Source: Elusimicrobiaceae bacterium
GTDB lineage: Bacteria; Elusimicrobiota; Elusimicrobia; Elusimicrobiales; Elusimicrobiaceae
DNA: 64,000 nucleotides
NCBI GenBank assembly: GCA_016281355.1
Contig: JAEEIL010000032.1
Location: 1-64,000, forward strand
Direction: 5' to 3'
Shown: positions 3,065 to 7,412 of the stretch, in pieces
Position numbering within the stretch: the stretch's first letter is position 1
How the letters are laid out: the number at the start of each line of letters is the position of its first letter
Notes under the pieces: generated by a model
The model's database searches: none
What the model saw: only the letters and a program-made list of their open reading frames with translations
Told to the model about the DNA's origin: nothing
Program-made: the position numbers and the translations under genes

Positions 3065-4015
3065 TTAGATAGATTTTGACGTCATACCCATTTCTTCACA
3101 AGCACCGCTTTTTATATCCCGGCAAATTATTTCACTTGTCTTATAGTGCGTTTCAAGTATAAACTCTTGCGGTTTAGTTACGGTCGCTTTTTCTTTGTCT
3201 TTTATGGAATATATCATACCATCTTTTGTCGTAAAACTTGAAGTATCTTTATATACTATTTCCCCAAAATCATCCCAAATTAAATTTAATTTACTAAGGT
3301 CATCTGTGTATTCCCCATTTGACTTGTACTTAGAATAGTTAAACTGCGCATTGCTTATTGAACCCAACAATTTAGAACGTTTGGCAAGTTTTAGGAACTT
3401 TTCCCTTTGTTCCACCAGTTGTTCTTCGGTTAACCCTGCTCTTTGGGACCCCGTTACCTGTTGCTGTGGCTTTGCCTGTTCAGTTTTATTAGGGAAGACT
3501 GGTTTATATTCGGCAGGTCTAGACACTACGCCCATTTCATCGCAACTGCCGGTACCGTTATCTTTGCAAACTAATTCCATTGTTTTGTAATATTCTTCAA
3601 GCACATATTTTTGGGGTTCGGTTGCAGTTGCTTTCTCTTTATCTATGGCATATATTATGCCGCTATCTACTGTAAAACTAGAAGTTTCTTTTGAGACAAT
3701 ACCCTTGACGTTATCTAAATTGAAATTCAATTTACTAAAATCATCCGTATATTCCCCATTGGCCTGATAATACTTATATTGGGAATAAGCTATTAAAGTT
3801 AGAACATCTGACCGTTCATGGAGTTTTCTTGCTTTTTCTTTTTGTGTTAATTTTGTCTTTTCCATTTCTGCGCCTTGCTTTTTCCAGCTTGCTTGTAGCT
3901 CGGCTACTTTTTCTTCTTGTTTTTTCCACTCCTTTTCATGTTCTGACCATTGTACATAGACAATACCTGCTATTAGTACCATCGGAATCATTATTGAAAT
4001 AAACATTTTTTTCAT
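3065..4015 (-). CDS. Membrane-anchored protein with two tandem pilin-head-like modules
   Basis: I start it at ATG 4015, which has AAGGAAAG upstream, rather than at a codon 27 nt earlier that lacks one; this gives 316 residues. Residues 4-22 form one N-terminal membrane anchor, and 23-66 a charged coiled coil. Two homologous modules follow, at about 69-163 and 213-312. Both contain NGEYTDD(F/L)SKLN, SSFT..(D/S)GxIY, DKEKAT.T.PQ(K/E), a tyrosine-rich strand and a paired Cys (150/158 and 298/306). They are joined by a Pro/Gln-rich linker. The modules resemble the heads of Elusimicrobium-type pilins without the pilin leader. Probably faces the periplasm. Function unknown. Confidence 0.6.
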   Translation of the reverse strand: MKKMFISIMIPMVLIAGIVYVQWSEHEKEWKKQEEKVAELQASWKKQGAEMEKTKLTQKEKARKLHERSDVLTLIAYSQYKYYQANGEYTDDFSKLNFNLDNVKGIVSKETSSFTVDSGIIYAIDKEKATATEPQKYVLEEYYKTMELVCKDNGTGSCDEMGVVSRPAEYKPVFPNKTEQAKPQQQVTGSQRAGLTEEQLVEQREKFLKLAKRSKLLGSISNAQFNYSKYKSNGEYTDDLSKLNLIWDDFGEIVYKDTSSFTTKDGMIYSIKDKEKATVTKPQEFILETHYKTSEIICRDIKSGACEEMGMTSKSI

Positions 4016-4052
4016 ATTCTTTCCTTTGTAAATTAATGCCACAAATATTAAT

Positions 4053-4748: not shown

Positions 4749-6028
4749 TATTTTATTTTTTCCTTCATTATACTGACGATAGTACTATCTACCTTCAGCA
4801 TGCCGACATTTGAAATTTTACTTAAATTTTGAATAGTCTTTTCAGCACTTTTACCAACAAAGCCCTCTGCTTCCGTTATGCCGTAATGCTTAATGCCCAT
4901 AAAAGCAGAGCGTAAAGCACTGTCAACTGAACTGACAACTTTTAAAGCACAACCGCTTTTTGCACCGTCGCAAAGCATACCGCCGATATCGCTAATAATA
5001 TTATTTATGGCAAGTGTTATTGCTTTAATATCTGCACCTTTTTGTTGATAAACCAAAGCGGCCGCAGCACCAACACCTGCCGCAATTGCGCAACCGCAAA
5101 TAGGGGCAAGTTCGCCGGTAAAAACTTTAACATAACCGTTTAACAAGTGGGAAAGTGCTATACTTTTTAAAATTCTATCCTCTTTAATTTTTAACTGTTT
5201 ACCGACGTAATAAGGAACTAAAATCGCTACTATTCCCTGATTACCTGAACCGCCGGAACTCATTACCGGATAACAAAAACCATCCATACGGCCGTCAGCT
5301 GCTTGAGCGCATAAAATTTTGGTATCGGTAACTAAATCTTTAGTGAGGATTTTTTGCCTAACTAAATTTTTTAAATAGAAGCCGACTTTTTCTAAACTTT
5401 CCCCTTTCCGTGATGCGGCCAAATTCATAACAACACCTTGTTTGATATAGGCTAAATCTTCCTTATCGGCATGTTCCGCGCAATTAATTAAGTCGGCAAT
5501 CTTTGTTTCCTTCAAAATTTGCAAATAAGAGTTTTTTTGTATTTTTTGCTTTTTTTCTTTTAAAACTTTACTGTTTAAAGAAAGGTAACATATATCCTGA
5601 TGTCCACCTGAAATTATGCATTTAACCTTGCTACCATTTTCCCCAACAACGTTAACACAAATATAAAAACCTTTTTTCGCAACAGTGTTTAAAATAACGC
5701 GTTTTTGCTTAATAAGCCCTAAGGCTTTGTCCAAAGTTTTAGGTGTAACACTTTTTAAAAGTTCCATTTTTTGTTTTGGGTTTTTAAGAACCAAACCCAA
5801 AGCTGCTGCTACCAAATTACCGCGAAGCCCACCTGTATTAGGAACTTTTACACCAAGCCCGTTTTTAAAAGTCGCCCCGTCTAAAAATAAAGTAGCTTTT
5901 TTAATGTCTTCTTTTTTTAAAACACTTGCTGCAGTAGCTGCGGCCAGTGCGACAGATACCGGCTCTGTACACCCTAAAGCCGGGTATACTTGATGTTTTA
6001 AAACTTCTTTCAGCAAATTTGTTTTCAT
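4748..6028 (-). CDS. cyuA: L-cysteine desulfidase (CyuA / UPF0597 family)
   Basis: A 426-residue UPF0597 protein, homologous to E. coli CyuA (YhaM) and archaeal L-cysteine desulfidase. These break L-cysteine to pyruvate, ammonia and sulfide with a [4Fe-4S] cluster. Seen here are Cys20 in PALGCTEPV, SSGGSGNQG near 258-266, and the cluster cysteines in the PICGC (311/313) and GMLCDGAKSGC (353, 360) motifs, as the family requires. The pathway is anaerobic and oxygen-sensitive, fitting a strictly anaerobic gut organism. The gene overlaps radC upstream by 4 nt (ATGA) and trmJ downstream. Serine-type deamination cannot be ruled out from sequence. Confidence 0.82.
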   Translation of the reverse strand: MKTNLLKEVLKHQVYPALGCTEPVSVALAAATAASVLKKEDIKKATLFLDGATFKNGLGVKVPNTGGLRGNLVAAALGLVLKNPKQKMELLKSVTPKTLDKALGLIKQKRVILNTVAKKGFYICVNVVGENGSKVKCIISGGHQDICYLSLNSKVLKEKKQKIQKNSYLQILKETKIADLINCAEHADKEDLAYIKQGVVMNLAASRKGESLEKVGFYLKNLVRQKILTKDLVTDTKILCAQAADGRMDGFCYPVMSSGGSGNQGIVAILVPYYVGKQLKIKEDRILKSIALSHLLNGYVKVFTGELAPICGCAIAAGVGAAAALVYQQKGADIKAITLAINNIISDIGGMLCDGAKSGCALKVVSSVDSALRSAFMGIKHYGITEAEGFVGKSAEKTIQNLSKISNVGMLKVDSTIVSIMKEKIK

Positions 6029-6723
6029 AAAAATAATTTTGGTTTTTCTATATAAGTACCACTTTCAAAACTATAAATTTTACCGTTACCGACTATAATA
6101 TGATCCACCATTTTAACGGACAAAATATTCAAAATATTTTTTAAATTATCCGTCATAAATTTATCTTCCATTGATGGGCTTGGATCACCTGATGGGTGAT
6201 TATGTACACATATTATATATTTTGCACCGTGTTTTAATATCAATTCAATAAGTTTACGCGGATATACGGTTGTATTATCGATATTGCCTTCAGATAAAAT
6301 TTCAGAAGCTATTAACCGAAGTTTTATATCCAGAAACAGAACTTCAAAACATTCTTGTTTTTTATTTTGAAGATGTGTCATACAATAATTGTAAAGTTCT
6401 TCTTGATTGGAAATACTTCTGCGGTTTTTAACTTTATCAAAACTATGGCGGGTTATAATTTCCCTTACAATATTTATAAGTAAAGCACTTTGCGGGCCAA
6501 GACCTTTTACTTTTTGAAGTTCAAAATTATTTGCTTCCAAAACTCCGCTTAAAGAACCAAAAGTTTTAAGCAAAGCCCAAGCAAGTTTTTTAGTATCTTT
6601 ACGCGGTATAGAATAAGTTAAAAGAAGTTCCAAAACCTCGTGATCCAAAAAAGGTTTTAGCCCTTCCTTTTTAAATTTGTTTTTAATGCGTTCCCTATGC
6701 CCGATATATGACGGTTTTTCCAT
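6025..6723 (-). CDS. radC: RadC-family JAMM/MPN-domain protein
   Basis: A 232-residue RadC-family protein: an N-terminal helix-hairpin-helix region (KGLGPQSA near 69-76) and a C-terminal JAB/MPN domain with the metal motif HNHPSGDPSPSMED. The HxH...D arrangement predicts a zinc-dependent hydrolase fold. RadC's physiological role is unsettled despite its DNA-repair name. The first ATG has no Shine-Dalgarno; a TATAAT sits exactly 6 nt upstream, so the mRNA probably starts at the start codon. It heads the minus-strand run radC-cyuA-trmJ. Confidence 0.88.
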   Translation of the reverse strand: MEKPSYIGHRERIKNKFKKEGLKPFLDHEVLELLLTYSIPRKDTKKLAWALLKTFGSLSGVLEANNFELQKVKGLGPQSALLINIVREIITRHSFDKVKNRRSISNQEELYNYCMTHLQNKKQECFEVLFLDIKLRLIASEILSEGNIDNTTVYPRKLIELILKHGAKYIICVHNHPSGDPSPSMEDKFMTDNLKNILNILSVKMVDHIIVGNGKIYSFESGTYIEKPKLFL

Positions 6724-6762: not shown

Positions 6763-6798
6763 AAAAAGAGCAGGCTCAGTTATCCACCGAACCTGCCC
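6763..6798 (-). terminator. Intrinsic terminator of the structured RNA
   Basis: GGGCAGGUUC (6798-6789) pairs over 10 bp, with two G-U pairs, to GAGCCUGCUC (6777-6768) around an 11-nt loop, followed by five U. It lies 40 nt upstream of radC. Confidence 0.85.
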
Positions 6799-7167
6799 TA
6801 ACTACAACTGGAGTTATCCTCCATATACTACTCCTTCCCTTCTAACTTCAGCGGTAATCCCTACCGCCACCTTCGGCAAACGGGGGTAAACGCACCGCAC
6901 CGCCGCCCTAAGCAGCCCAGACACAGAACCAACCGCGCCCGAACCACACTCGCAAGAGAAACAACCCAAGAAACCTACGCAACTTGCGCTACTTCCCTCA
7001 CTTGCAAGCCCCACAACCGGCACCCTCACGGGATTTCCGCCGGCACAGGCAATCACCCAAAATCACAGCAACCGCCCGAAAAGAGCCCACCCAAAAATCT
7101 GCGGGTAGCCCTCTTTTTTAGAGTTGGAAACGCTTATAAAAATCTAAGCCCCTTATTTGCTACCCGT
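6763..7167 (-). ncRNA. Unidentified large structured RNA, about 405 nt
   Basis: This minus-strand segment is much richer in G+C than anything around it and is bounded by a strong promoter (7174-7201) and an intrinsic terminator (6763-6798). The 5' end CGGGUAGC (7166-7159) pairs with GCUACCCG (7109-7102), closing a domain with hairpins GCUUA/UAAGC and CUCU/AGAG. Further hairpins seen are CCGGC/GCCGG enclosing UCCC-GUGA-GGG (a GNRA loop), CUUGC/GCAAG, GCGGUA/UACCGC and GGAG/CUCC. I found no RNase P P4 motif, no tmRNA tag or tRNA-like end, no SRP domain IV and no group II domain V. An 80-codon open frame inside it lacks a ribosome site and has abnormal composition. Identity unknown. Confidence 0.7.
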
Positions 7168-7173
7168 ACTCAT

Positions 7174-7201
7174 AGTATAAGGGTTTTTTCAAATTTGTCA
7201 A
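7174..7201 (-). promoter_or_regulatory. Sigma70 promoter of the structured RNA
   Basis: On the minus strand a perfect TTGACA (7201-7196), a 16-nt spacer and TATACT (7179-7174). This is the best-matching promoter in the window. The start is predicted near 7167, just before the 5' strand of the closing stem. Confidence 0.8.
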
Positions 7202-7336: not shown

Positions 7337-7412
7337 GGGCCTGTAGCTCAGCTGGGAGAGCGCCTGCATGGCATGCAGGAGGTCGCCGGTTCGATCCCGA
7401 CCAGGTCCACCA
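7337..7412 (+). tRNA. tRNA-Ala, anticodon GGC
   Basis: A full cloverleaf of 76 nt with encoded CCA. Acceptor GGGCCUG pairs with CAGGUCC, including the G3-U70 alanine identity pair. D arm is GCUC/GAGC. Anticodon stem CCUGC/GCAGG encloses loop AUGGCAU, anticodon GGC for GCC/GCU codons. The T arm has GGUUCGAUCCC. Confidence 0.97.

Follow-up and report, generated by a model that had tools for sequence, protein, structure and literature searches.

The window, a 64,000-nucleotide stretch of an Elusimicrobiaceae genome, carries on its minus strand a predicted RNA gene (6763..7167) whose transcript would extend from the first base of a closing helix, P1, to the U-run of a terminator; its boundaries are set by conservation among homologues. 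The gene is flanked by tRNA-Ala(GGC) (7337–7412, plus strand) and by radC (6723..6025, minus strand), which lies on the same strand as the RNA and starts 40 nt past the terminator. GC content is approximately 0.30 in the flanking genes and 0.58–0.65 at 6850–7100, in agreement with the GC-rich island in AT-rich DNA described in a first-pass annotation of this sequence. The sole overlapping open reading frame (ORF) of note, an 80-residue GTG frame (7056..6814), was rejected as coding since the homologues split the frame into frame-shifted pieces, and no conserved coding is found across the RNA. Elsewhere in the window (3065–4042, minus strand), a 325-residue ORF is internally duplicated (SKLNFNLDNVKGIVSKETSSF... 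and SKLNLIWDDFGEIVYKDTSSF...) and has a pilin-like look.

The RNA gene and its transcription signals

The predicted promoter consists of a −35 hexamer TTGACA (7196..7201, minus strand) and a −10 hexamer TATACT (7174..7179, minus strand) separated by 16 nt, and matches 11 of the 12 positions of the sigma-70 consensus. The first-pass annotation had proposed this promoter, and it is retained in all 13 homologues whose 5′ end is complete, with an exact −35 hexamer in 13/13 and a 16-nt spacer in every one (for L006 the automated call was 18 nt with TATTAT, but 16 nt results if the equivalent TATATT, two bases earlier, is taken). Directly 5′ of the −35 hexamer, every copy has either CCCCC, in the clade of the window, or GGGCC, in the other clades. 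The −10 hexamer lies 5–6 nt upstream of the first base of P1 in the homologues, and transcription is therefore expected to start at P1 itself, so that the 5′ end would be buried in a helix. The promoter looks constitutive and of the sigma-70 type. An abundant, housekeeping RNA, as suggested earlier, may be expected from this promoter and from the conservation of the gene.

At the other end, an intrinsic terminator (6767..6799, minus strand) is formed by a 14 bp stem with a five-nucleotide loop, GGAUA (6785–6781), followed by TTTTT. The U-tailed stem had thus been recognized correctly in the first-pass annotation, but its length had been given as 10 bp. The structured nature of the RNA was likewise borne out: the minimum free energy is −167.4 kcal/mol compared with −139.8 ± 5.1 kcal/mol for dinucleotide shuffles (z = −5.45), and none of 100 shuffles was as low.

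Homologues, gene contexts and known RNA families

A BLAST search of 60 relatives returned copies at or close to full length in four genomes; other genomes of the genus matched a single 32-nt patch only, and these patches, when read in context, are parts of complete genes of the same anatomy. Two covariance models were built from separate ends of the RNA, R1 from the 5′ domain and R2 from the 3′ motif. R2 detected 14 genomes and R1 recovered 13 of them, missing only G003, in which the copy is cut at a contig end. Three independent probes, the DNA and the two models, therefore converge on the same loci. The homologues are 388–582 nt in length and occur as one copy per genome in 14 of the 18 genomes of the window's genus (Elusimicrobiaceae from gut and rumen); the four genomes without a match are 64–86% complete.

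Using R1 and R2, homologues were absent from 42 genomes of other genera in the family and order. A weak 5′-domain match in G040 (24.9 bits, E = 0.088) was rejected, having no 3′ motif and no matching RNA around it. A search with laxer filters in the four negative genomes of the genus and 17 other family members gave only matches with E > 0.1, and those inspected had no promoter or 3′ hairpin motif alongside. When 84,980 species genomes were scanned for the pattern, the matches were Elusimicrobiota MAGs, many of them from rumen or gut, together with six unrelated contigs in which the 3′ motif is not accompanied by the 5′ domain and which were taken as chance matches. No matches were found in viral contigs, phages or plasmids, and an origin from such elements was rejected. 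At the sensitivity of the searches used, the homologues appear to be confined to one genus, in line with the earlier suggestion of a lineage-specific RNA.

The gene contexts differ between clades. In the clade of the window the RNA adjoins tRNA-Ala and radC; the neighbourhood of tRNA-Ala noted in the first-pass annotation therefore holds for this clade but is not a general feature. In other clades the RNA is found between pheS and the tRNA-Cys-Gly-Thr-tuf cluster, between this tRNA cluster and an AcrB-type pump gene, or with an aldose epimerase gene on one side and an AcrB-type gene on the other, the AcrB-type gene being convergent in both of the latter arrangements. In most clades, therefore, either the tuf/tRNA-Thr-Gly-Cys cluster or a gene of the AcrB type is close by (loci L070, L072, L073 and L085). 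The neighbours common to the other clades suggest one ancestral place near tuf, with a later move beside tRNA-Ala and radC in the clade of the window.

These contexts bear on a possible function as a cis leader or attenuator, in which a short reading frame close to the terminator (see below) would control readthrough into the downstream gene, here radC. The position of radC, on the same strand and shortly beyond the terminator, would suit such a role, and a ribosome at the stop codon of the short frame would overlap the terminator stem. However, no same-strand downstream gene is conserved: radC, the tRNA-Cys/tuf cluster or an AcrB-type gene follows according to clade, and where the AcrB-type gene follows it is convergent. 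A cis leader or riboswitch was rejected on these grounds, and attenuation, against which the shifting context speaks strongly, is scarcely credible. The variety of contexts, some with convergent neighbours, argues that there is no cis target and that the RNA acts in trans. It is almost certainly a stand-alone, trans-acting structured RNA gene that constitutes a separate family and has been inherited vertically within a single genus of Elusimicrobiaceae.

No Rfam family matches the RNA. With Rfam 15, only the two tRNAs of the window reach the gathering score, and scans with relaxed thresholds, covering the window together with 11 homologous loci, gave no family recurring over the RNA. The first-pass annotation had seen no hallmarks of RNase P RNA, tmRNA, SRP RNA or 6S RNA, and Rfam-model searches for these likewise gave no match at the RNA, either at gathering score or at a relaxed E-value; all four were rejected as identities after searches of the window's own genome or of relatives. 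The one RF00010 (RNase P RNA) match of the genome lies on another contig (G000:C22, 182 bits) and its RF00023 (tmRNA) match is also elsewhere (G000:C16, 134 bits); ARAGORN finds no tmRNA at the RNA. The literature searched yielded no paper on an Elusimicrobia structured RNA and no RNA survey of the phylum.

The SRP RNA models (RF00169 and RF01854) gave no match in the window's own genome or in 26 genomes, the negative for the large SRP RNA being soft since its control run gave no match in Bacillus subtilis. The M domain of Ffh (PF02978) is missing from each of the order's 61 genomes (G000 and 60 relatives), with 14/14 controls positive. That few Elusimicrobia have Ffh or FtsY has already been noted (PMC7987157), and the whole order appears to have lost the signal recognition particle. 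With neither an SRP RNA match nor Ffh, an identity of the present RNA as SRP RNA is rejected. The apparent loss of SRP is far wider than the distribution of the structured RNA.

Fold and covariation

The 5′ domain (7101..7167, minus strand) consists of P1 (7166–7159 paired with 7109–7102) enclosing P2 (7149–7145 with 7136–7132) and P3 (7123–7111). P1 is the long-range closing stem already drawn in the first-pass annotation, with exactly the same pairing, and four of its pairs are changed on both sides among the homologues. The R1 model of this domain scores 78.4 bits in its own genome. The domain contains 19 doubly changed cells compared with 6.5 in shuffles (0/500 shuffles as high), and only 39–48% of cells are paired in slid registers. 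P2, which aligns poorly between clades, is the weakest helix of the domain.

A central three-way junction (7004..7090, minus strand) is closed by P4 (7090–7082 with 7012–7004) and contains two hairpins. P5 (7049..7075, minus strand) is rich in G-U pairs and has a nine-nucleotide loop, xUGAxxxxx (7066–7058), in which UGA is kept at positions 2–4. P6 (7016..7044, minus strand) has a 7 bp stem, an A-rich 5′ bulge that is kept below a CCC/GGG stem, and a GNRA-type cap (CCC-GUGA-GGG); it corresponds to the GNRA-capped hairpin recognized earlier. Because MAFFT misaligned P5 across clades, P4–P6 were counted from hand-assigned strands in 14 sequences. Canonical pairs occupy 69/70 cells of the inner five pairs of P4 (98.6%), 123/126 cells of P5 (97.6%) and 96/98 cells of the P6 outer stem (98.0%). 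Doubly changed sequence pairs number 191, 227 and 157, respectively, compared with 33, 61 and 36 in shuffles, or about four to six times as many, although assignment by hand favours structure and the shuffles ignore relatedness. Slid registers, a fairer control than the shuffles, are 23–60% canonical. Covariation in the homologues is strong, with abundant compensatory changes in P1, P4, P5 and P6.

The region between P4 and the 3′ module is clade-specific. Within it, a 33-nt stretch, GGCGGCGGUGCGGUGCGUUUACCCCCGUUUGCC (6875..6907, minus strand), hardly varies among members of the tRNA-Ala/radC clade and is without a counterpart in the other clades.

The overall shape bears on two further readings. 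One is that of a 6S-like RNA polymerase regulator whose sequence has diverged beyond the reach of Rfam. No RF00013 match exceeds the cut-off in 36 genomes of the order, where the 6S gene has been either lost or unrecognized, and the model may be too narrow for the phylum; a 6S gene might therefore have escaped notice, and the present gene does look constitutive. However, 6S RNA is defined by a long rod with a central bubble, whereas the present RNA (388–582 nt) is branched, with two junctions and several hairpins. It is also limited to one genus, whereas 6S RNA is undetected in every genus alike. The probability of a 6S-like function is accordingly very slight. The RNA might alternatively form RNA-only oligomers of the OLE, ROOL or GOLLD sort, for which complexes have been reported (PMC12286853). 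It resembles them in being a large, ornate, stand-alone RNA of gut bacteria, but it has no Rfam match to these families and self-complementary apical loops were not noticed, and such oligomers would be very unlikely.

The 3′ module and its possible functions

All 14 copies end in the same arrangement, AGGAG-N5-8-AUGGAGGAWARCUCC, followed by an in-frame stop after 8–12 codons and then by the terminator. In the window, the Shine-Dalgarno-like AGGAG (6831..6835, minus strand) is followed by a mini-ORF, AUG GAG GAU AAC UCC AGU UGU AGU UAG (MEDNSSCS; 6798..6824, minus strand), the beginning of which forms a 3′ hairpin, UGGAG-GAUAA-CUCCA (6809..6823, minus strand), with an invariant stem; this hairpin is the basis of R2. 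The spacer between AGGAG and AUG varies both in length (5, 6 or 8 nt) and in sequence, while AGGAG and AUG are both fixed. Fixed ends around a variable spacer are the pattern of constraint of a ribosome-binding site. AGGAG is, however, predicted to be only moderately open, with an unpaired probability of 0.11–0.98 that exceeds the RNA's own median in 11 of the 14 copies.

The mini-ORF could make the RNA dual-functional, with translation yielding a peptide of 8–12 residues (M-E-[DE]-[NS]-S...) as its product. AGGAG, AUG and the stop are present in 14/14 copies, the only change seen in the stop being UAA/UAG, and the D/E and N/S exchanges are mild. However, all eight sense codons that vary within clades are changed non-synonymously and none synonymously, and residues past position 5 differ freely between clades. 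The lack of any excess of synonymous change leaves a conserved peptide unsupported and a useful one unlikely, and the dual-function reading is improbable. Constraint on the letters of the 3′ module appears to act on the RNA and on a start site rather than on a peptide.

Since constraint on the RNA is strongest in the start-site module, we tentatively propose that the RNA may dock on ribosomes via a decoy start site and act in trans. Transcription would begin at the base of P1 and end at the intrinsic terminator, and the P1–P2–P3 domain, the P4–P5–P6 junction and the clade-specific stems would provide a stable scaffold. The 3′ end would present AGGAG-N5-8-AUG, immediately followed by the small hairpin and the frame of 8–12 codons. 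The 30S subunit or ribosome would bind this decoy through the anti-Shine-Dalgarno sequence, and the RNA, by riding on or occupying ribosomes, would modulate translation in trans. Two features could be read otherwise: the purine-rich AGGAG could instead pair within the RNA, and the 3′ hairpin, the stem of which never varies, could serve for protein binding or a tertiary contact, in which case the AUG would be incidental.

The latter possibility leads to the main rival, a protein-binding scaffold or sponge in which the loops GAWAR (3′ hairpin), UGGAUAA (terminator) and xUGA (P5) would bind a lineage-specific protein. The terminator loop UGGAUAA is kept in 12/14 homologues (not in L007, nor in G005, which has UGGGUAA), although terminator function does not require it and the stem changes from clade to clade, and the 3′ hairpin is invariant in sequence beyond what pairing demands. 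CsrA (PF02599), the obvious GGA-loop protein, was nevertheless found in none of the 19 genomes tested and was detected in three control genomes; any bound protein would therefore not be CsrA, and a CsrA-sponge RNA (CsrB/RsmY) was rejected. A scaffold also leaves unexplained the invariant AGGAG at variable spacing and the retained stop codon, and we regard this reading as slightly less likely than ribosome docking. The peptide, a 6S-like action, RNA-only oligomers and attenuation are all less likely than ribosome docking or a protein scaffold.

Irrespective of function, the window contains a single-copy structured RNA found across a genus, under strong structural selection and outside all 4227 Rfam families. 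If the 3′ module does bind ribosomes, the RNA would exemplify a type of ribosome-associated RNA organized around a decoy start. It is rather doubtful that it constitutes a new class of ribosome-docking RNA, in which a scaffold of about 400 nt, its most constrained element being a decoy start immediately ahead of the terminator, would regulate ribosomes in trans in hosts that apparently lack SRP. Even without ribosome binding, this is a new RNA family with boundaries, a fold and a diagnostic motif, fit for inclusion in Rfam; the novelty lies in the family itself, the function being a proposal.

Several known RNAs invite comparison. The present RNA resembles tmRNA in its similar size, its short frame with a stop and its own promoter, but it is without tRNA-like ends, and a Shine-Dalgarno-like site and AUG take the place of the resume codon. 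It shares a similar size and multi-junction architecture with type A RNase P RNA, which it does not match and which is encoded by a separate gene in the genome. The sponges of the CsrB/RsmY type likewise have GGA in hairpin loops and a strong terminator, whereas the present RNA has only two such loops and occurs in genomes without CsrA. Dual-function small RNAs of the SgrS type also carry a short reading frame inside a regulatory RNA, but here the frame lies at the 3′ end, comprises 8–12 codons and encodes a peptide that is not conserved. OLE, ROOL and GOLLD (PMC12286853) are similarly stand-alone, highly structured RNAs of several hundred nucleotides with patchy lineage distributions and unclear cellular functions; the present RNA has no sequence or covariance-model match to them and differs in possessing an invariant start-site-like 3′ module.
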